64,000 nucleotides of DNA from Erysipelotrichaceae bacterium (GCA_016280635.1 JAEEHC010000084.1:1-64000), one strand, 5' to 3'. Numbered from the stretch's first letter, positions 26,539 through 40,909 are shown. Notes: a model not told the origin generated them from the sequence alone. Numbers and translations: made by a program.

Positions 26539-26613
26539 CGTCAGAAGGAAAACCGGCTGAAAAACAGTGCCCGCAGATGATATAATATTATATTGATTGT
26601 TGGAGGTGTTTTT

Positions 26614-28608
26614 ATGTCCAGACCTGAATTCCCCAAGAGAGCAGTAATAACTGCCGGCATGCCTTATGGCAACAAAGATCTTCACTTCGGCCACATCGGC
26701 GGTGTCTTCGTTCACGCTGACGTTTTTGCCCGCTTCTTAAGAGACCGCATCGGCAAGGAGAACGTCATCTTCGTATCCGGAACCGACTGTTACGGTTCAC
26801 CGATCGCTGAGGGCTATCGCAAGAAGGTTGAAACCGAAGGGTTCAAGGGAACCATCGAAGACTATGTCATGGCCAACCACCTGAGCCAGAAGAAAGCCCT
26901 TGATGATTATGAGATCTCTCTGAACATCTTTGGTGCTTCCGGACTTGGCGACAGTAAGGACATCCACCAGCAGTACACCAACGAGTTCATTACCACCTTA
27001 TATAAGAACGGCTGGCTGGAAAAGCTGGTCACCAAGCAGTTCTATGATGCCAAGGCCAACTGCTTCCTGAACGGCCGGCAGGTCATCGGCAAGTGCCCAA
27101 TCGAAAACTGCCAGTCGGAAAAAGGCTACGCTGACGAGTGCGATCTCGGCCACCAGTACATGCCCGAGGATCTGATCGATCCCAAGAGCACCCTGACCGG
27201 AGAGACTCCGGAAATGAGGGACGTTACCAACTGGTATTTCCGGTTGACCGACTGCAATGACATCCTGAAGGAATATGTCGAAGACATCGCCGGCAAGGAA
27301 AACGTCCGCCGGGTCGTCTACGAGACCATGAGAGAATCCCTGGCCGAGCCGATCATCTATGTCCGCAAGGAAGGTTTGGAGAAGTATAAGCAGCTGGCTG
27401 ACCAGCTGCCGGAACATGAATGTTCTGATCTGGAAAACATCAAGGGCGGAAGCTTCGAGATCACCTTCAAGACTCTGAAGGACAGAGAAGCGGCCTGCAC
27501 CGTTCTGACTGCAAATGGCTTACGCTACCGTACCGGCAAGACCCTGGTACCGTTAAGGCTGACCGGCAACATCGAATGGGGCGTTAAGGCACCGTCACTG
27601 GAAGGCGAGGAAGGACTGACCGTCTGGGTCTGGCCGGAAAGCCTGTGGGCACCGATCAGCTTCACCAAGACTTTCCTGAAGAGGATGGGAAAAGATGATG
27701 AGGCCTGGAAGGACTTCTGGTGTGATCCCCAAGCCGGTGTCTTCCAGTTCATCGGGCAGGACAACATCTACTTCTATGGGGTTGCCCAGATGCCGATGTT
27801 CATGGCCCAGAACGGCCGGAATCTGAACGTTCACCCGGGCAAGGGCGAACTGTGCCTGCCCACCCTGGTGGCCAACCACCACATCCTTTTCCTGGACAAG
27901 AAAGCCAGTTCTTCCGGCTCGGTAAAGCCTCCGATGGCCGCTGATCTGCTGAACTACTATACCGCTGAGCAGCTCAGGGCTCACTTCATTTCCCTGGCGC
28001 TGGCCAACAAGTCGGTCAGCTTCATGCCCAAGCCGCTGAATCCGCAGATGCAGGACAGCCGGGAAGCCGATCCGGTTCTGGCTCAGGGTAACCTGTTTAC
28101 CAACGTGCTGAACCGTCTGGTCAGAAGCTGCTTCTACTGCAGCCAGAAATACTATGACAATACCGTTCCCTATGGCCAGGTAAGTAAGGAAATCAGAGAG
28201 AGCAGCGAAAAGGCGATCCTGGACTTCGAAAGGCAGATGTACCGCTTCGAACTGCATCAGCTGATGAACACCCTGGACACCTACATCCGGCAGGCCAACA
28301 AGTACTGGGCCAGAAACATGAACCAGGCTGATAAGGAAGATAACGAACCGCTGAGGAGGCAGACCCTGATTGACTGCTTCCACATGGTCCGGGTGGCAAC
28401 GCTGCTGTCGCACGCCATCGTGCCGGCCGGCTGTGAAAAGACGGTTGCCTATCTGAACCTGGACGAGAGGTTCTTTGACTGGCAGTATGCCTTTGAGGAT
28501 CTCTACTATTTCTTTGAAGACAAGGAAAACCATCATATCCGGGAACTGAAGGAAAAGGAAGACTTCTACCTCAAGCATCCCAGTCAGTTCGTACAGAAAG
28601 AGGGGTAA
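26614..28608 (+). CDS. class I tRNA ligase-family protein, methionyl-tRNA synthetase paralogue with variant motifs
   Basis: HFGH (HIGH position), CPIENCQSEKGYADECDLGH zinc knuckle, FIGQDNIYFY, KASSS at the KMSKS position. Start ATG at 26614. Confidence 0.82.
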   Translation: MSRPEFPKRAVITAGMPYGNKDLHFGHIGGVFVHADVFARFLRDRIGKENVIFVSGTDCYGSPIAEGYRKKVETEGFKGTIEDYVMANHLSQKKALDDYEISLNIFGASGLGDSKDIHQQYTNEFITTLYKNGWLEKLVTKQFYDAKANCFLNGRQVIGKCPIENCQSEKGYADECDLGHQYMPEDLIDPKSTLTGETPEMRDVTNWYFRLTDCNDILKEYVEDIAGKENVRRVVYETMRESLAEPIIYVRKEGLEKYKQLADQLPEHECSDLENIKGGSFEITFKTLKDREAACTVLTANGLRYRTGKTLVPLRLTGNIEWGVKAPSLEGEEGLTVWVWPESLWAPISFTKTFLKRMGKDDEAWKDFWCDPQAGVFQFIGQDNIYFYGVAQMPMFMAQNGRNLNVHPGKGELCLPTLVANHHILFLDKKASSSGSVKPPMAADLLNYYTAEQLRAHFISLALANKSVSFMPKPLNPQMQDSREADPVLAQGNLFTNVLNRLVRSCFYCSQKYYDNTVPYGQVSKEIRESSEKAILDFERQMYRFELHQLMNTLDTYIRQANKYWARNMNQADKEDNEPLRRQTLIDCFHMVRVATLLSHAIVPAGCEKTVAYLNLDERFFDWQYAFEDLYYFFEDKENHHIRELKEKEDFYLKHPSQFVQKEG

Positions 28609-28616
28609 AAATAACT

Positions 28617-30263
28617 ATGGATTATAAGAAACTGGCAGATCTGCTTTATCCAAATCTGCAGCATGACTGCCAATATTACGAAGAACTCTATCCGGCCAGA
28701 GACCTGCCCAAGGGAGCTGAGGTCCTGCGCATGGCACCATCACCGACCGGCTTCGTTCATCTGGGCAACCTGTACGGGGCCTTTGCCGATGAGCGAATCG
28801 CCCACCAGAGCGGCGGCGTCTTCTTTCTGCGCATTGAAGACACGGACCTGAAGAGAAAGGTCGAGGGCGCCGTTGAGGCGGTCATCAACTGCTTCAACTA
28901 CTTCGGACTGCACTTTGACGAAGGCGCTCAGCAGCCGGTGGAAGGAAACTACGGCCCTTACTATCAGAGACAGCGCGAAGAGATCTACCAGACCTTCGCC
29001 AAGAAGCTGATCTCGGAAGGCAAGGCCTACCCCTGCTTCTGTTCACAGGAAGAACTCAATGAGATCAGAAGGCAGCAGGAAGAAAACAAGGAAGCTACCG
29101 GTTATTACGGCAAGTGGGCGCACTGCCGCAACCTGACCTACCAGCAGGTGGAAGAACACCTGAAAAACGGCGATCCCTTTGTCATCAGACTGAAGGCGGA
29201 GGGTAATCCGGAAGTCAAGCATCAGTTTCATGATGAGATCAAGGGTGACATCGTCGTCACTGAAAACAATCAGGACATCGTCCTTTTGAAGACCGACGGC
29301 ATTCCAACCTATCACTTTGCCCATGCCGTTGACGATCATCTGATGCATACCACCATCGTCTTAAGAGGCGAAGAGTGGCTAGGTTCGCTGCCCGTTCATC
29401 TCGAACTGTTTGACAAGCTGGGATTCCCGCTGCCCAAGTTCGCTCATACGACCGTCTTAATGAAGATCGATAACGGCGTCAAGAGAAAGCTTTCCAAGCG
29501 CAAGGACCCGGAACTGTCTCTGGATTACTACCGTCAGCTGGGCTATCACCCCTATGCCGTCAAGGTTTATCTGCTGACGCTGCTGAACTGGAACTTTGAA
29601 CAGTGGTATCTGGGTCATCCGGACAGCGATGTCGATGAGTTCAAGTTCTCTCTCGACAAGATGGGCCAGTCCGGCGCCCTGTTTGACCTGGACAAGCTCA
29701 ACAACATTTCCAAGACCTATCTCTCCAAGATGAGCCTGGAGGAAATGAAGGATTATCTGCGCACCTACGTCCGTTCCTACTGCCCGGAAAGGGAAGCCAT
29801 GTATTTCGGCAATGAAGAATACCTGGACAAGATCCTGACTCTGGGCATGGGCATGAATCTGAAGAAGAGAAGGAAGGACTACATCTACGCCAAGCAGATC
29901 CTGGAGTCCATTGATCTCTACTTTGCGGATGGCTATAAGCGGGAAGATGAATTCAAATATGATCCTCAGCTGACCGCCACCATTCTGAAGCAGTTCAGAG
30001 ACAGCTATGATTACAGCGATGACAACGGCACCTGGTTCAACAAGGTCAAGCAGATCGCTGCTGATAACGGCTTTGCGGCGGAGATGAGCGACTACAAGGC
30101 TGCTCCGGAAAACTACCGGGGTTCCGTCAGCGATATTGCCGAAACCGTGCGCATCGCCATTACCGGCCACCGCAATTCTCCCGATCTCTGGAGCATCATG
30201 CAGATCCTGGGTGTTGAGGAGTCAAACCGCCGCATTGATGAAGTGCTTAAGGAGCTTGCTTAA
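28617..30263 (+). CDS. gltX: glutamyl-tRNA synthetase
   Basis: RMAPSPTGFVHLGN (HIGH region), RIEDTD, KRKLSKRKDPE (KMSKS region). Confidence 0.92.
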   Translation: MDYKKLADLLYPNLQHDCQYYEELYPARDLPKGAEVLRMAPSPTGFVHLGNLYGAFADERIAHQSGGVFFLRIEDTDLKRKVEGAVEAVINCFNYFGLHFDEGAQQPVEGNYGPYYQRQREEIYQTFAKKLISEGKAYPCFCSQEELNEIRRQQEENKEATGYYGKWAHCRNLTYQQVEEHLKNGDPFVIRLKAEGNPEVKHQFHDEIKGDIVVTENNQDIVLLKTDGIPTYHFAHAVDDHLMHTTIVLRGEEWLGSLPVHLELFDKLGFPLPKFAHTTVLMKIDNGVKRKLSKRKDPELSLDYYRQLGYHPYAVKVYLLTLLNWNFEQWYLGHPDSDVDEFKFSLDKMGQSGALFDLDKLNNISKTYLSKMSLEEMKDYLRTYVRSYCPEREAMYFGNEEYLDKILTLGMGMNLKKRRKDYIYAKQILESIDLYFADGYKREDEFKYDPQLTATILKQFRDSYDYSDDNGTWFNKVKQIAADNGFAAEMSDYKAAPENYRGSVSDIAETVRIAITGHRNSPDLWSIMQILGVEESNRRIDEVLKELA

Positions 30264-31282
30264 TGCGCTACCCGTCATTTTTGCCTAAGAATGGAACGAT
30301 AGGCGTCGTGGCCCCGAGCTTCGGGGTCAGCGGCTTTCCCTACGAGGACCGCTACTTCAACGCCAAGAAGAAACTGGAAGCCTTAGGTTATACGATCAAG
30401 GAAGCGGAGCACATTTTCGGCATCGAAAAAGCCGCCAGTACGGACGGCAGGACCAGAGCTTCTGAGTTCATGGAGATGTATCTGGACGATGAAGTCGACT
30501 TCATCATTTCCGTCGCCGGCGGCGAACTGATGATGGAGATCCTTCCTTACATCGACTTTGAAAAACTCAGGCAGGCCAAACCCAAGTTCTTCATGGGCCT
30601 TTCCGACAATACCAATCTGACTTTCACCCTGCCGGTGCTTACCGATACGGCGGCTATCTACGGCAACTGCTTCGGTTCCTTCGGCATGGAGAAATGGTAC
30701 CGCTCGCTGAAGGAAAACCTCAAGATCATTACCGGCCAGCAGAGCAGCCAGCTCAGTTTCCCCAAATATGAAAAGGAAGGCTGGCCGAAGGAGAATCTCG
30801 ATCCTTATGCCGGCTTCAACATGAGAAAAAAGGTTGAATACAAGTCCCTGGACGGCAAAGACCACAGGATAACCGGAAGGCTGATCGGCGGCTGTCTGGA
30901 CATATTGGTAATGCTGTGCGGGACCAGATATGGTGATGTTGACTTTTTTCTTGAAAAGTACAAAGATGATGGTTTTATTTGGTTCTTAGAATCCTACGAC
31001 TTAAATATTCTTTCTCAGCAAAGAGCGCTGTGGCAATTAAGAGAAAACGGATGGTTCAAATACTGCAATGGCGTGATATACGGTAGGCCATTTAATTCAG
31101 AGCCACTATTTGATGTGACGTTACATGAAGCGTTATTTGCTGCCCTTAACTCTATTGATGTTCCAGTGATATATGGCTGTGACTTCGGTCACTTACCCCC
31201 GGGCTGGACGCTCATCTCTGGATCGCTGGCCACCTTTGAGAAGGAAGGAAGCAAAGGCCGCATAAGTTTTGAACTGAAATGA
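30263..31282 (+). CDS. S66-family peptidase (LD-carboxypeptidase / MccF-like)
   Basis: GVVAPSFG start, GLSDNTNLTF catalytic Ser region, WFLES (Glu), DFGHLPPGWTLISGS (His). ATG overlaps the gltX stop. Confidence 0.87.
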   Translation: MRYPSFLPKNGTIGVVAPSFGVSGFPYEDRYFNAKKKLEALGYTIKEAEHIFGIEKAASTDGRTRASEFMEMYLDDEVDFIISVAGGELMMEILPYIDFEKLRQAKPKFFMGLSDNTNLTFTLPVLTDTAAIYGNCFGSFGMEKWYRSLKENLKIITGQQSSQLSFPKYEKEGWPKENLDPYAGFNMRKKVEYKSLDGKDHRITGRLIGGCLDILVMLCGTRYGDVDFFLEKYKDDGFIWFLESYDLNILSQQRALWQLRENGWFKYCNGVIYGRPFNSEPLFDVTLHEALFAALNSIDVPVIYGCDFGHLPPGWTLISGSLATFEKEGSKGRISFELK

Positions 31283-31911
31283 TCAGAAATGTGATATTTG
31301 ACCTGGACGGTACCCTGCTGGATACCGAATACCGGGCCATTGAGATAAAGAAGATGATCCTAGCTCGCCATGGCTTAGATCCCAATGACCAATTGATGAC
31401 CAGGCTGACGGCCCGCAAGCTGAAGGATGCCCTGCCTGAACTGCTGGAGGACAAGCAGCTGGTCAGGGAGATTCTGGATGACTATTATCAGTTTGCCTAT
31501 GATGGCATTGATTATGGCAAACTGAAGTTGCCCGGCAGTGATGAATTGCTACGGCAACTGAAAAAATCTGGCTACACTCTGGCTCTGGCAACCATCTCCG
31601 ACCGCAGCAAGGTCGATCAGGTGCTGCAGCAGTGCCAATGGCAGGATATCTTCAGTTATACCACGACCCTTGATGATGTCAGAAAGGCCAAGCCGGATCC
31701 TGAGACCTACCTGACAGTTCTGGAAAAGCTCGGGCTGCAGGCTGAGCAGACCGTGGTCGTAGAGGATTCGCTGATTGGCATTCAGGCCGGCAACCGGGCC
31801 GGGCTGAAAGTCATCTGCCGCCGGGAGCCCAGACTGAACATGGATCAATCCGGAGCTGACTGGTATGTTGATGATCTCGATGATATTATTCTGTCCATTA
31901 GCAACAAATGA
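31279..31911 (+). CDS. HAD-superfamily hydrolase (phosphoglycolate phosphatase/beta-PGM-like)
   Basis: IFDLDGTLLDTE, KPDPETYL, VVEDSLIGIQAG. Confidence 0.9.
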   Translation: MIRNVIFDLDGTLLDTEYRAIEIKKMILARHGLDPNDQLMTRLTARKLKDALPELLEDKQLVREILDDYYQFAYDGIDYGKLKLPGSDELLRQLKKSGYTLALATISDRSKVDQVLQQCQWQDIFSYTTTLDDVRKAKPDPETYLTVLEKLGLQAEQTVVVEDSLIGIQAGNRAGLKVICRREPRLNMDQSGADWYVDDLDDIILSISNK

Positions 31912-32101
31912 AATAAAGTGATAAAGAAAGAATCCCCAAAGACAGTTGTAAACAACTAAGAATAATTGAAACGCAAATTCCTGTTGCCACCAAACAAGAA
32001 TTTATGAAACAGTAGATATTAGCTTGTTCAAACAATTATGGCCGGCTCATAATTAATAAGTGACATAGAGCACATTCTGATATAAAGTATTTCGCTGAGA
32101 G

Positions 32102-32977
32102 TTATTTCTCTACCTTTCTAATTATTCCTTTATTGTCTAATAGATAAAGATTTGTTGCCCCAACCCCAAGCAAACGCTTTATTTTTTCGTCAATATGGCA
32201 ATTTCGTGAATCAATAAAATCAAACTCATTTTCTTTAATTGTTTGGAATACAGGGTCATTTTTAGCCTTATATGTAATTAATACTTTATCAAATAAATCG
32301 ATTATATCCTTTGAGTAAGTATTATTTTGAAGTGTAGCTAATACAAGCTTTTCAACAGCAATTCCACCAATAGCTATGGATGAATTGGTTGGAAGAGGGT
32401 GAATATGCGCAAGAGAACAAGAAAGGCCATTTATGATAAATCGGATGTGGTAATCGTAAGGCCCTTTTTCACTAATCAGTATTTTATCCGATCCATATAT
32501 ATCTGAAAAAAGAGAAACAAGAATGTTTAGGAGGTCGCTTATCGTTCTGTTTGATAAGAAATTTATGAGACTGAATGAATGTAGGCGAAGTTGTGTAATT
32601 TGAACTCTTTCGGTAGTATCAACATAAGTTTTTTCCCACAGAACATCTATGCCATCAGCCAATAGAGGCATTAATTCTGTTGCATCAGTTATTGGGTCAG
32701 AAACAAAAAGTAAAGAGGCCTTTTCCATTACTGAGCAAGTACGAGGAATGATTATGTTGTTTTTATAACAAAGTAGAGAGGGAACAGATACTTCGATCAT
32801 GTTGTTTTTGCTTAATCCATTTATAACATAGTCGCTTAGTTTCTGCTTAACTAAGTTGCCTAAAGGGGTATATATGATATTACCAACGCTTCTTGATTTT
32901 GTGGCTATACCATAGTAGAGGAAATAATCCAATCTACTTTTAATGACGATGTGTTTTATTGTATCTTTTACTATCAT
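32102..32977 (-). CDS. uncharacterised protein, possible class II aminoacyl-tRNA synthetase-like fold
   Basis: By eye: motif-1-like GNIIYTPLGNLVKQKLSDYVINGLSKNNMIEVSVPSLL, motif-3-like SIAIGGIAVEKLVLATL, C-terminal FDFIDSRNCHIDEKIKRLLGVGATNLYLLDNKG like the class IIa anticodon-binding domain. No convincing motif 2. AT-rich. Confidence 0.5.
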   Translation of the reverse strand: MIVKDTIKHIVIKSRLDYFLYYGIATKSRSVGNIIYTPLGNLVKQKLSDYVINGLSKNNMIEVSVPSLLCYKNNIIIPRTCSVMEKASLLFVSDPITDATELMPLLADGIDVLWEKTYVDTTERVQITQLRLHSFSLINFLSNRTISDLLNILVSLFSDIYGSDKILISEKGPYDYHIRFIINGLSCSLAHIHPLPTNSSIAIGGIAVEKLVLATLQNNTYSKDIIDLFDKVLITYKAKNDPVFQTIKENEFDFIDSRNCHIDEKIKRLLGVGATNLYLLDNKGIIRKVEK

Positions 32978-32985
32978 ATTTCACC

Positions 32986-34617
32986 TTAGATTGAAAAAAA
33001 ATTAGACGAGTTAGATAAAAGCAAATCTATGCTCTCCACTTTGGATGGGGAAACAAGATCTAAGTCGTATAATAGATTTAAATCTTTTTTTCTTGCGTTA
33101 CCAACGAAATCATAAAAATGAACATTACCTTTAAGGGATGACAATACAGCTATATGATTAAACGCTCCTCTACATGAGGAATATACACATATATTTACAC
33201 CAGTATCCCCTAAATACTTAATAATCTCTTCACAACAAGGAAAAGAAAAAATGTTTTCGGTGATAATGTTAATTTTCCTAGAGTTAAGCGGGGTTATTAC
33301 ATTAACAAGGTTATAAACAATGTCATCAATGCAAGTGTTATTGATATTAACCGTAACTATTGATCCGTTTGTCTCAGGATTAGTTTTTGTTCTTTTTCTT
33401 TTATATTTTTTGTTTATTTGGCTTATTTGTTGTGGTGTCTCACTCACTAGTGATAGCCCTTTGTAAAACAATAAATTATGCCAGGATTCATCAACTTTAG
33501 GATCGTGAACTTTTAACTGATCGAAAAAGACAGTTCCAGGTCTTACTAGTAGTGAAGAAACATTGTATCTTATGCCAAGCAAACCAAGATAATCTAAATC
33601 ATTACTCAGGCTTTCAGTCGATTGTCCAGGCAAACCCTGCATCATAAAGGCGGCAGGGAACAACCCATGTTTGTGAATAAGTTTTAGGGAGTTAATATTT
33701 TTTTCACGGTCATTATTCTTGTTTGCACGTCGGAGGACTTCGTTATCCAGGCTTTCAACCCCAAGCCAGATGCCGATAAACCCACTTGCTTTCATTAAAG
33801 CCAACAAATTGTCATCTAATATACCCGCTCTACTCTGTGCAAGTATTTTAATGTTGATAGGGTTCTCTATTAATCTTTTGCATAAAGCTGTACTCCAAGG
33901 CTTATTTAGTCCAAATATACTATCAATGAAAAAAACATACTTTGCGCCTAAAGTGGATTGGAGTTTTAAGTCATTATAGACATCATCAACTTCTCTATAT
34001 CTAACTTTTCTGCCATTAAAGTTATAACAAAAAAAACAATTATATGGGCATCCTCGAGAGCCTTGAATAATAGACCAGTTTCTTATGATGCCATCAGAAT
34101 TATTGTCAATTGGATAGCCAAAATAATTAATATAATTCAACAACTCGTATTTGGGGATGGAACGTGTTTGAAAAAGATCACCACCTGAATGTAGGATTCT
34201 TGATTTATTTGAGCAATCACTGTTTAATAAGGTTGCTACGGCTGTTTCCCATTCCCCAACAACAACATAATCTGCACCAGTGGCATTCAGCATCCTTTCG
34301 GGGTATAAAGAAGAATGAGCACCAACGATAATCAGTTTTCCATGACACGTTTTTTTTAGATGCTTGCAAAACGATATGGCATATAATAGCCTATAGTCAA
34401 TTGGGTAGTTTTGAATAATGTCAAGCTCCGATGTACAAACAACAAGATAATCATAATCATGAAAACAAACAGATTCATTTACTCGCAAGTCATGAAGTTC
34501 AGCTGTAATTGAATCGCTTAATAAAGAGATAGTCCATAGTGAACCAAGAGGAGGTTGTAAAAAATAGCGCCCTCCTAATAATGGCGGGATAATGAAAGCG
34601 GCTTTCTTCTTTTTCAT
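32986..34617 (-). CDS. B12-binding-domain radical SAM protein
   Basis: Radical SAM CPYNCFFC; N-terminal cobalamin-binding-like IPPLLGG...LIIVGAHSSLYPERML...YVVVGEWE; extra C-terminal region of about 125 aa. Confidence 0.88.
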   Translation of the reverse strand: MKKKKAAFIIPPLLGGRYFLQPPLGSLWTISLLSDSITAELHDLRVNESVCFHDYDYLVVCTSELDIIQNYPIDYRLLYAISFCKHLKKTCHGKLIIVGAHSSLYPERMLNATGADYVVVGEWETAVATLLNSDCSNKSRILHSGGDLFQTRSIPKYELLNYINYFGYPIDNNSDGIIRNWSIIQGSRGCPYNCFFCYNFNGRKVRYREVDDVYNDLKLQSTLGAKYVFFIDSIFGLNKPWSTALCKRLIENPINIKILAQSRAGILDDNLLALMKASGFIGIWLGVESLDNEVLRRANKNNDREKNINSLKLIHKHGLFPAAFMMQGLPGQSTESLSNDLDYLGLLGIRYNVSSLLVRPGTVFFDQLKVHDPKVDESWHNLLFYKGLSLVSETPQQISQINKKYKRKRTKTNPETNGSIVTVNINNTCIDDIVYNLVNVITPLNSRKINIITENIFSFPCCEEIIKYLGDTGVNICVYSSCRGAFNHIAVLSSLKGNVHFYDFVGNARKKDLNLLYDLDLVSPSKVESIDLLLSNSSNFFSI

Positions 34618-34619
34618 AT

Positions 34620-35684
34620 TTACTCCAAATCTGTTCTAGTAGCCATATCTTTGTTATCGCCAGTTGCATAGAACTCTGCCCTTTTGAAAGATTTAATTAG
34701 CCACTGCATTTGATCTTCCATAGAGTTGTACTTCTGCTTCTCTGTCCATCTACAAGAACAAAGTCTTCCATCAGATAGACAGAAAATATCGTATAGGCCT
34801 TCATGGCAGGGGAAATATTTACAGCCTCGACATATGGAGTCTTCTTCATTCAAGTCGTAGTGGGATCCTTTTTTGCTGTTTTTCACTGTGACAAAAACAT
34901 CACCAAATTTATATCTGTAGCATGGCGTTCCAAATCCTCTTGAATATTCATGAGTATAAACTGCATCGCACTTTTCTGCGAACTCCTGTTCTAAAGAATT
35001 AACCTCAGTGTAAAACGACTGCCGTTTAGTGCTATAGGGTACTGGCACTGAAACAATGTCCAAAATTTTTAAATCACAATGAAGGGAATCACAGTAGCTA
35101 ATAATATCGTATATTTCATCATTATTATATTTACTAATAACCGTGTTTATTCTCAAAAGATGCCCTGTGTCACTTAGTAACTGTAGGCCAGATTTGATTT
35201 CTTGTAAACAATTCGCGCTTGATACAACTGTAAGAGTTTCTGGTTTTAGTGTGTCTAGACTTACTGCAAACTTGATGTTGTTAGGTAGCGATTTAATGGT
35301 GTCTTCGTGTTTTTTTAAAAGAGAACCGTTGGTGTTAACCAATGTGTAGAGGCAAGAATTGCCAAGATAATGTAAGATTTCACTGATATTTGGATGAAGA
35401 AAAGGTTCTCCACCTGTGATGCGTATTTTATGAATGCCAATGGATGAAGCATAGGAAACATATTTTTCTATTAAGGGCAATTGTATAAAAATGTTGTTTG
35501 ATGCTGTAGCTTCTCCACCACTTCCACAGTATATACAGCGAAAATTGCACGCTTTTGTGATTGGGAATGATAAAAAAGGAGTCCAGTTGTTTCCGTGGTC
35601 TTTATCCACACTACAGTACTCATCCCATTTGTTTTGGAACGAGGTTTTCTTATCATAATCATGCATATCAAAGTACATTTTCAT
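34620..35684 (-). CDS. radical SAM protein (MoaA-like with C-terminal Cys cluster)
   Basis: KACNFRCIYCG; RITGGEPFLHPN; C-terminal CRGCKYFPC...CLSDGRLCSCRW. Confidence 0.88.
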   Translation of the reverse strand: MKMYFDMHDYDKKTSFQNKWDEYCSVDKDHGNNWTPFLSFPITKACNFRCIYCGSGGEATASNNIFIQLPLIEKYVSYASSIGIHKIRITGGEPFLHPNISEILHYLGNSCLYTLVNTNGSLLKKHEDTIKSLPNNIKFAVSLDTLKPETLTVVSSANCLQEIKSGLQLLSDTGHLLRINTVISKYNNDEIYDIISYCDSLHCDLKILDIVSVPVPYSTKRQSFYTEVNSLEQEFAEKCDAVYTHEYSRGFGTPCYRYKFGDVFVTVKNSKKGSHYDLNEEDSICRGCKYFPCHEGLYDIFCLSDGRLCSCRWTEKQKYNSMEDQMQWLIKSFKRAEFYATGDNKDMATRTDLE

Positions 35685-35699
35685 ATTATATCCTCTTTC

Positions 35700-35741
35700 T
35701 TAACTAGTTAAATTATAAAAAGGAAAAACGACAGGTTTCAA
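35700..35741 (-). promoter_or_regulatory. promoter and palindrome upstream of the radical SAM island operon
   Basis: Minus-strand TTGAAA (35736-35741), 18 nt, TATAAT (35712-35717); perfect 12-bp palindrome TTAACTAGTTAA (35700-35711) next to the -10. Confidence 0.65.
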
Positions 35742-35794
35742 TAATTATTTGGCTGTAGAGAATAGAAGAAATACACTCTAGGGTTCTAATTCTA

Positions 35795-36757
35795 TCAGGT
35801 CATTATCTGAACTATCTCAATGGCCCTGAGCAGGGAATCCGGACGGGCAAGGTTCCTGCCGGCGATGTCAAAGGCGGTTCCGTGGTCAACGGAAGTCCGG
35901 ATGACAGGCAGACCGCAGGTGATGTTTACCCCGCCGTCAAAGTCCATCAGCTTCAGGGGAATGTGGCCCTGATCGTGATACATGGCCACCACCAGATCGT
36001 ATTCGCCCTTGGCGCATTTCAAAAAGACAGTATCCGGGGGGATTGGCCCGCAGACATTGAGCCCGGCGGCCTTCATCTGCTTTACGGCGGGAATGATCTC
36101 GTCAATCTCTTCCCGGCCGAATAGGCCGTTTTCCCCGGCGTGGGGGTTAAGTCCGGCAATGGCAATCCGGGGATTCTCATATCCGGCCTTAACCAGAATT
36201 TCCTGAGCCAGTCCGGTCACCTCAATGATCCGTTCCTTCTTTACTCTTCTGATGGCTTCGGCCAGAGAAACGTGAGTAGAAACATGGATCGTCTTCAGTT
36301 TCTGAGCCCACAGCAGCATCGCGCATCTTTCAGCGTGAGTAAGTTCTTTAAGTATTTCGGTATGTCCGGCATAATCGTAACCGGCCAGATGCAGGGCTTC
36401 CTTGTTGAGCGGGCAGGTAACGATGGCGCTGATTCTGTTATCCAGGGCATCATCACAGGCTCTCTGCAGGAAGATGAAGGCGCTTTTGCCGCACAGCGGG
36501 GAAAGCTGGCCGACGGAAAATTCGGCAAGCTTCAAGCCGGTAGGGTCGATGACGTTGAGCTCGCCATCCCGAGCTTCTGCCGGTTCAGCGATCAGGTTCA
36601 AGCTGTAATGATAGCCAAAGCGATCATTATAGACCGAAAGGACATCTGCAGATCCGTAAATGATGACTTCATCCAAATGCTTATCCAGCACTTTTAGAAT
36701 GATCTCCGGACCGATGCCGGCGGCATCGCCCATCGTTATTCCCAGTCTTTTTGCCAT
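35795..36757 (-). CDS. pdxA: 4-hydroxythreonine-4-phosphate dehydrogenase family (PdxA)
   Basis: ITMGDAAGIGPEII, YAGHTEIL, GLNPHAGENGLFG, YHDQGHIPLK, VDHGTAFDIAG. Confidence 0.9.
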   Translation of the reverse strand: MAKRLGITMGDAAGIGPEIILKVLDKHLDEVIIYGSADVLSVYNDRFGYHYSLNLIAEPAEARDGELNVIDPTGLKLAEFSVGQLSPLCGKSAFIFLQRACDDALDNRISAIVTCPLNKEALHLAGYDYAGHTEILKELTHAERCAMLLWAQKLKTIHVSTHVSLAEAIRRVKKERIIEVTGLAQEILVKAGYENPRIAIAGLNPHAGENGLFGREEIDEIIPAVKQMKAAGLNVCGPIPPDTVFLKCAKGEYDLVVAMYHDQGHIPLKLMDFDGGVNITCGLPVIRTSVDHGTAFDIAGRNLARPDSLLRAIEIVQIMT

Positions 36758-40700: not shown

Positions 40701-40909
40701 CTACAGGTTGTGAACAGAAGAGTAGCAGCAAGCCGGAAGCAGAGAGACATTGGCTGGTGGAAAATGTCCGAAGTGAACTGTGAACATGGTCTGGGAACCG
40801 TCCTGCCAATGTCCTTCAGGCAGGAACGTATGACGGCGTTAACGTTTTGAGAAGCAATTAAGGTGGTACCACGTTAAAGACGTCCTTTGTCGTGGTACCT
40901 TTATTTTTT
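40701..40909 (+). promoter_or_regulatory. T-box riboswitch (Met-specific) upstream of metG
   Basis: T-box sequence AAGGTGGTACCACG; terminator GGTACCACG (40865-40873) / CGTGGTACC (40891-40899) plus T-run; Stem I GGTT...ACAG / CTGT...AACC enclosing GAACATGGTCTGGG with specifier ATG at 40786-40788. Confidence 0.92.

Follow-up and report, generated by a model that had tools for sequence, protein, structure and literature searches.

Described systems closest to the island

Radical SAM enzymes are only rarely paired with synthetase-like ligases. In the pyrrolysine system (PylB, PylC, PylD, and PylS) a radical SAM enzyme is linked to a class II synthetase, and it was with this system that the original prediction compared the locus described here, a three-gene island within a 64,000-nucleotide stretch of Erysipelotrichaceae DNA (the window). 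The island genes encode, in the order of the operon, the radical SAM proteins P3 and P2 and an orphan protein, P1. Relatives of the island likewise combine radical SAM genes with genes for class II synthetase-like proteins. The difference from the pyrrolysine system is that no dedicated tRNA is found beside the genes of the window or the sampled loci, PylC and PylD are missing, and the relatives' ligases resemble lysyl-tRNA synthetase (LysRS).

Other described systems share single features with the island or its relatives. MoaA, the GTP 3',8-cyclase, has a radical SAM core and a C-terminal set of cysteines in common with P3. EpmA/GenX, the EF-P lysine ligase, is a short LysRS core, as are the ligases of a looser set of relatives, although these cassette ligases score under the EpmA cut-off and P1 gives no match to the EpmA model at E values up to 1. 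Immunity to microcin C involves the peptidases MccF (S66-type) and MccG (S51), which cleave aminoacyl- or peptidyl-nucleotides (PMC9239234). Genes of the S66 (LD-carboxypeptidase) or S51 family are present in the looser cassettes, and by analogy their products may protect as MccF and MccG do; the island, in contrast, contains no such peptidase gene. In the literature searched, which did not extend to subscription journals, no paper matches the gene combination of the cassette, and no product is given for the pairing of radical SAM enzymes with a synthetase-like ligase.

Composition, layout, and origin of the island

The island (31912 to 35794, a region assigned to neither strand) is AT-rich and lies between the 3' ends of a HAD gene and pdxA. 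Its GC content is 34.4%, whereas 1-kb windows outside it have a mean of 52.7% (sd 2.3, minimum 45.3%); the GC profile runs at 31-38% from 31912 to about 35700 and at about 52% on either side. The GC3 values of the three island genes (0.27, 0.29, and 0.34) are likewise far from those of neighbouring genes (0.62-0.74), and a single antisense ORF of at least 80 aa (33719-33979) lies beneath the island genes, compared with many beneath the neighbours. The drop in GC, the shift in codon usage, and the near-absence of antisense ORFs that had been noted earlier are thus borne out by measurement. All three genes are on the minus strand with intact, open frames, and they are packed as tightly as predicted, with gaps of 2 nt and 8 nt. 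The promoter that had been assigned to this operon is recovered as a predicted site, TTGAAA-18-TATAAT (35712..35741, minus strand, reading from 35741 to 35712), which is positioned just upstream of the start codon of P3, the first gene. The site is identified by its match to the consensus (11 of 12 positions); promoter-like sites as a class are no commoner in the window than in shuffles.

A same-genus genome (G003) keeps both of the blocks that flank the island and lacks the island itself. Nucleotide homology between the window and this genome stops at 31877, at the end of the HAD gene, and restarts at 35816, at the end of pdxA. Because G003 lacks the island and has the two blocks separated by about 15 kb of sequence particular to itself, the island sits at a rearrangement junction; a chimeric contig may be another source of the island junctions. 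None of the three proteins is found outside the window's own genome in the related genomes sampled, which numbered 146 relatives and 395 genomes of the class for P1, 395 of the class for P2, and 392 of the phylum for P3. Together, the composition, these absences, and the lack of the island in G003 support the earlier proposal that the island is foreign and was acquired horizontally.

The two radical SAM proteins

P3 (354 aa; 34620..35684, minus strand) and P2 (543 aa; 32986..34617, minus strand) both match Pfam Radical_SAM, at 8.8e-17 and 2e-17, respectively, as the original prediction had it. P3 has the cysteines C46-x3-C50-x2-C53 and a C-terminal set, C285/C288/C293/C311. Its nearest curated family is moaA, with a score of 108.6 bits that is far under the cut-off of 284.05; in contrast to MoaA, its cysteines are spaced differently and its C-terminus, MATRTDLE, does not contain the C-terminal GG. 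P3 also scores against peptide-maturase families, and it has no Pfam match to a SPASM domain. P2 carries CPYNCFFC at residue 190. The B12-binding-like domain at its N-terminus is weak and partial (2.8e-4; 21.1 bits versus a cut-off of 32.1), and the DxHxxG motif is absent from the protein.

Relatives of P3 were collected by scanning 84,980 species genomes for an exact pattern based on the shared C-terminal Cys motif. The scan yielded 25 loci, of which 24 are distinct, as L023 and L024 are copies of each other in opposite orientation on a single contig. Four other close relatives of P3, with identities of 56, 44, 42, and 39%, come from Lachnospiraceae, Bacteroidia, Actinomycetota, and Elusimicrobia. 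In a P3 tree these and the window protein form a clade of five rows with support of 95/92, closer to one another than to MoaA or other radical SAM families, and the Lachnospiraceae protein (L021) is nearest to the window. The window clade is not joined to the clade of the looser cassettes ahead of MoaA in this tree, which therefore does not show that the two kinds of cassette share an ancestor.

Scans of viral contigs with P3 and P2 returned nothing, and a scan with the P3 alignment returned distant radical SAM proteins only. Matches in Paraclostridium, Geobacillus, Pseudomonas, Treponema, Sinorhizobium, and Synechocystis were dropped, as their neighbourhoods are unrelated, and PADLOC gave radical SAM cross-hits and nothing else.

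Relatives with a similar neighbourhood

Two of the loci, L021 (a Lachnospiraceae MAG; P3 identity 56%) and L023 (an Actinomycetota MAG; 42%), have relatives of both P3 and P2 in one neighbourhood, as the window does. The P2 relatives are 28-32% identical to the window protein, with pairwise E values of 4.9e-61 and 1.1e-55. In L021 the gene order is B12-type radical SAM, class II LysRS-like, class I LysRS, SPASM radical SAM, P3, P2. In L023, P3 is followed by the class II LysRS-like and class I LysRS genes, and P2 is encoded on the opposite strand some 4 kb farther downstream. Unlike the window, then, these loci add a class II LysRS-like gene and a class I LysRS gene, and they have no homologue of P1; in the window the LysRS pair is missing, and P1 alone stands in that place. 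The class II LysRS-like gene matches PF00152 at 7.2e-13 in L021 and weakly, at 0.033, in L023. The class I LysRS is full-length in both (TIGR00467, 386.9 bits in L021 and 312 bits in L023, both above the cut-off), and that of L021 has a tRNA-binding domain. The cassette LysRS copies are extra ones, since each of the two genomes encodes a housekeeping class II LysRS at another site. Class I LysRS searches of the window's genome (91% complete) gave weak cross-matches only. The L021 block is AT-richer than its flanks and adjoins a transposase-like gene, and the SPASM protein beside its P3 relative is a Clo7bot-type maturase. At L022, which is near a contig end, and at L043, the P3 relative has no neighbouring P2 or synthetase gene; in L022 its neighbours are a deaminase, a NUDIX protein, and a methyltransferase. 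Homologues of the three genes that never co-occur elsewhere would have counted against the original prediction; P3 and P2 do co-occur elsewhere, in L021 and L023, and P1 has no homologue. The pairing of radical SAM and synthetase-like genes is supported by the relatives, through LysRS/EpmA-like and class I LysRS genes, and is not carried by homologues of P1.

Several smaller features of these loci may be recorded here. The class I LysRS and class II LysRS-like genes that adjoin the radical SAM genes occupy 3074-6455 in L021 and 9132-12073 in L023. Residues about 400-543 of the window P2 (32986-33418) form a C-terminal extension of some 140 aa that is missing from the L021 and L023 relatives, which carry N-terminal extensions instead. 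The housekeeping lysS of the L021 genome (L197; G610:C1:189654-191102, minus strand) has an in-frame TAG at codon 15 from a GTG start, with TTG as the very next codon, which may be a sequence error, a nonsense change, or a sign of a later start.

A looser set of cassettes resembles the window in that a MoaA-like radical SAM gene, with the C-terminal Cys motif PCH[DE]xL, is followed by a B12-type radical SAM gene, and the third gene is often class II synthetase-like. These cassettes (actinomycetes, Calothrix, and Clostridia; L025-L044 and plasmids) differ from the window in P3 identity, which is about 21-27%, in falling into a separate tree clade, and in having many more genes (S66, SDR, small protein, WYL, HhH-GPD). 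They recur on plasmids: a plasmid search with P3 found cassettes in Nocardia, Streptomyces, and Calothrix. Besides a MoaA-like and a B12-type radical SAM, these encode a LysRS-like protein, a peptidase of family S66, an SDR, and a small protein; in Streptomyces the S66 and LysRS-like genes have changed places. Across the 24 distinct loci of the looser set, the pair of radical SAM genes is present in about 20, a LysRS-like gene in 14, and an S66 gene in 13, and L036 has S51 in place of S66. The LysRS-like ligases of this set are short synthetase cores. Among L009, L010, L020, and L025-L044, the cassettes also encode an OGG/HhH-GPD-like protein, a regulator of the WYL type, and a small conserved protein that has no match in Pfam. 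In L029, L034, L037, and L042 an EgtB/SUMF1-type protein is present and a LysRS-like gene is absent.

The third island protein

P1 (291 aa; 32102..32977, minus strand) had been predicted to contain stretches like class II synthetase motif 1, motif 3, and an anticodon-binding domain, and its residues 27-70 bear a weak resemblance to motif 1. Single-protein scans of plasmids, phages, viral contigs, genome contigs, and related genomes find no homologue (the matches L002 and L003 are unrelated proteins), and P1 has no match in Pfam. In NCBIfam it matches threonyl-tRNA synthetase (ThrRS) at E values of 0.025 and 0.05 within residues 27-72, and it also matches Avs1b, at 0.02. A prolyl-tRNA synthetase (ProRS) HMM scores 4.7 bits at residues 27-70, above 1000 of 1000 shuffles and 517 of 517 unrelated protein pieces; a ThrRS HMM scores 2.2 bits at the same place, a value exceeded by 3 of the 1000 shuffles and 1 of the 517 pieces. 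These ProRS and ThrRS scores are suggestive rather than conclusive, because the profile tests covered seven synthetase families and two LysRS-like sets. By eye, a possible motif 2 is located near residues 94-136 (YVDTTER) and a possible motif 3 near 200-215 (VEKL; alignments leave the placement unsettled, with GATNL as the other candidate), with the conserved Arg replaced in each. If P1 is a class II synthetase core, the catalytic arginines of motifs 2 and 3, which are visible in the LysRS-like ligases of relatives, thus appear to have been lost. Of the stretches first proposed, motif 1 has gained weak statistical support, motif 3 is plausible by eye, and the anticodon-binding domain has gained none.

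An unaided AlphaFold model of P1 is poor (pLDDT 34.8). When it is searched with Foldseek, 40 of the 50 best matches are class II synthetase-fold chains, none of them significant (E above 0.2, in a search made without a shuffled-sequence control). The matches include ProRS, PylRS, a bacterial tRNA synthetase, and the polymerase gamma accessory subunit, which has a class II-like fold. Thus the fold check that had been proposed for P1 yields mostly class II matches from a model that is too poor to exclude the fold. Taken together, profile scores and model are suggestive of a class II synthetase fold, and P1 may be a worn-down tRNA-synthetase-like domain. Comparison by hhalign of P1 with the LysRS-like proteins of relatives is no better than with shuffles. 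A 4.2-bit HMM score between P1 and this family was rejected as out of register, and an AlphaFold model of P1 that used these proteins as its alignment was set aside as circular and poor (pLDDT 40.4).

A proposed pathway and its alternatives

Relatives of P3 and P2 lie beside LysRS-like genes in several phyla, and the island is therefore probably a small variant of an undescribed pathway that couples an amino acid to a small molecule. More specifically, our preferred but tentative reading (probability about 0.4) is that the island was acquired and represents a divergent, minimal form of a mobile biosynthetic cassette, whose core would be the MoaA-like P3, the B12-family-like P2, and a synthetase-like partner, and which would serve a small-molecule pathway with amino-acid activation. 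This reading builds on what is observed directly, namely the foreign composition, the gene order, the radical SAM assignments, and the co-occurrence in relatives. Within such a pathway, the P3 and P2 of the relatives would probably build an unusual group on a substrate that may be an amino acid or a nucleotide. The class II LysRS/EpmA-like enzyme would activate an amino acid, probably lysine-like, as the adenylate and would then join it to the P3/P2 product. The likely output would be a small molecule that carries an aminoacyl group and can interfere with a synthetase. Such a product would account for the S66/S51 hydrolases of many relatives and for the additional class I LysRS of L021 and L023, the hydrolases and the LysRS alike serving in immunity. 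P1 is the third protein of the operon, in the slot that the synthetase-like gene has in several of the relatives' cassettes; it may be a class II core that has diverged strongly and that binds the amino-acid part or joins it on, or else a pseudo-synthetase. Against the cassette reading, the island has no hydrolase or spare LysRS, the S66 gene nearby is native, and P1 has neither a homologue nor a significant match to the LysRS-like proteins of relatives. The poor P1 models, the P3 relatives of L022 and L043 that stand without P2 or synthetase neighbours, and the separation of the two clades in the P3 tree also count against it. In a narrower version, which we consider improbable, the product of the P3/P2 cassettes would be an antimetabolite, either derived from lysine or a lysyl-nucleotide, with class II LysRS as its target; the cassette class I LysRS would be a structurally unrelated, resistant spare, and P1 would be an immunity or carrier pseudo-synthetase that replaces it in the window. 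If the cassette reading is correct, a single mobile and widely scattered family brings together radical chemistry, synthetase paralogues that activate amino acids, and immunity through either peptidases or a spare class I LysRS. This could mean that there is a new class of natural product directed at LysRS and a further repurposing of the synthetase fold.

A small-molecule product is more likely than the insertion of an unusual amino acid into protein, because the looser relatives carry short synthetase cores together with peptidases of families that act on aminoacyl-nucleotides. In a pyrrolysine-like system, P3 and P2 would produce the unusual amino acid, which a synthetase would then load onto a tRNA for incorporation into protein. 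Such a system would suit the radical SAM enzymes of L021 and L023, which are accompanied by LysRS relatives of class I as well as class II, and the tRNA-binding domain on the L021 class I LysRS. However, there is no tRNA gene in the window and none adjoining the genes of the sampled loci, nor any Rfam match beside the genes of either; the island consists of three genes and has no pylC or pylD; the ligases of the looser set are short cores; and no intact catalytic motif is seen in P1. The analogy to pyrrolysine is consequently weak, and we regard this alternative as very unlikely. The absence of a tRNA, pylC/pylD, and a precursor peptide had been noted from the start, and none has been found. 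The last of these bears on the idea that P3 and P2 are RiPP maturases and P1 an accessory protein. Here the scores of P3 against peptide-maturase families and the Clo7bot-type SPASM maturase in L021 are as expected, but the intergenic gaps in the window are too small for an obvious precursor peptide, none is evident in the L021 gaps, and P3 has no Pfam SPASM match; we judge peptide modification unlikely.

Modification of a nucleic acid or cofactor, with P1 as an unrelated novel protein, would fit the position of MoaA as the nearest curated family to P3, the HhH-GPD/OGG-like gene of the looser cassettes, and the deaminase, NUDIX protein, and methyltransferase of L022. The recurring LysRS-like and S66/S51 peptidase genes would nevertheless be unexpected in such a pathway, and it is judged unlikely. 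Somewhat less unlikely, and still of low probability, is that three functionally unrelated genes were acquired together, or that the island is the remnant of a larger cluster, so that P1 does not act together with P2 and P3. The orphan status of P1, the absence of the relatives' partner genes from the island, and the great rarity of window-type loci all agree with this, whereas three open, tightly spaced frames behind a good promoter match do not.

Neighbouring genes of the window

The region from 26593 to 31911 (plus strand) is a native operon that contains second MetRS-like and GluRS-like copies, an S66 LD-carboxypeptidase, and the HAD protein. The S66 gene (30263-31282) was considered as part of the island system and rejected, as the metG2-gltX2-S66 set is native and is conserved in three same-genus genomes; it may be a separate resistance set. 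Farther along the window, at 40701-40890 (plus strand), a T-box leader lies upstream of the main metG gene.
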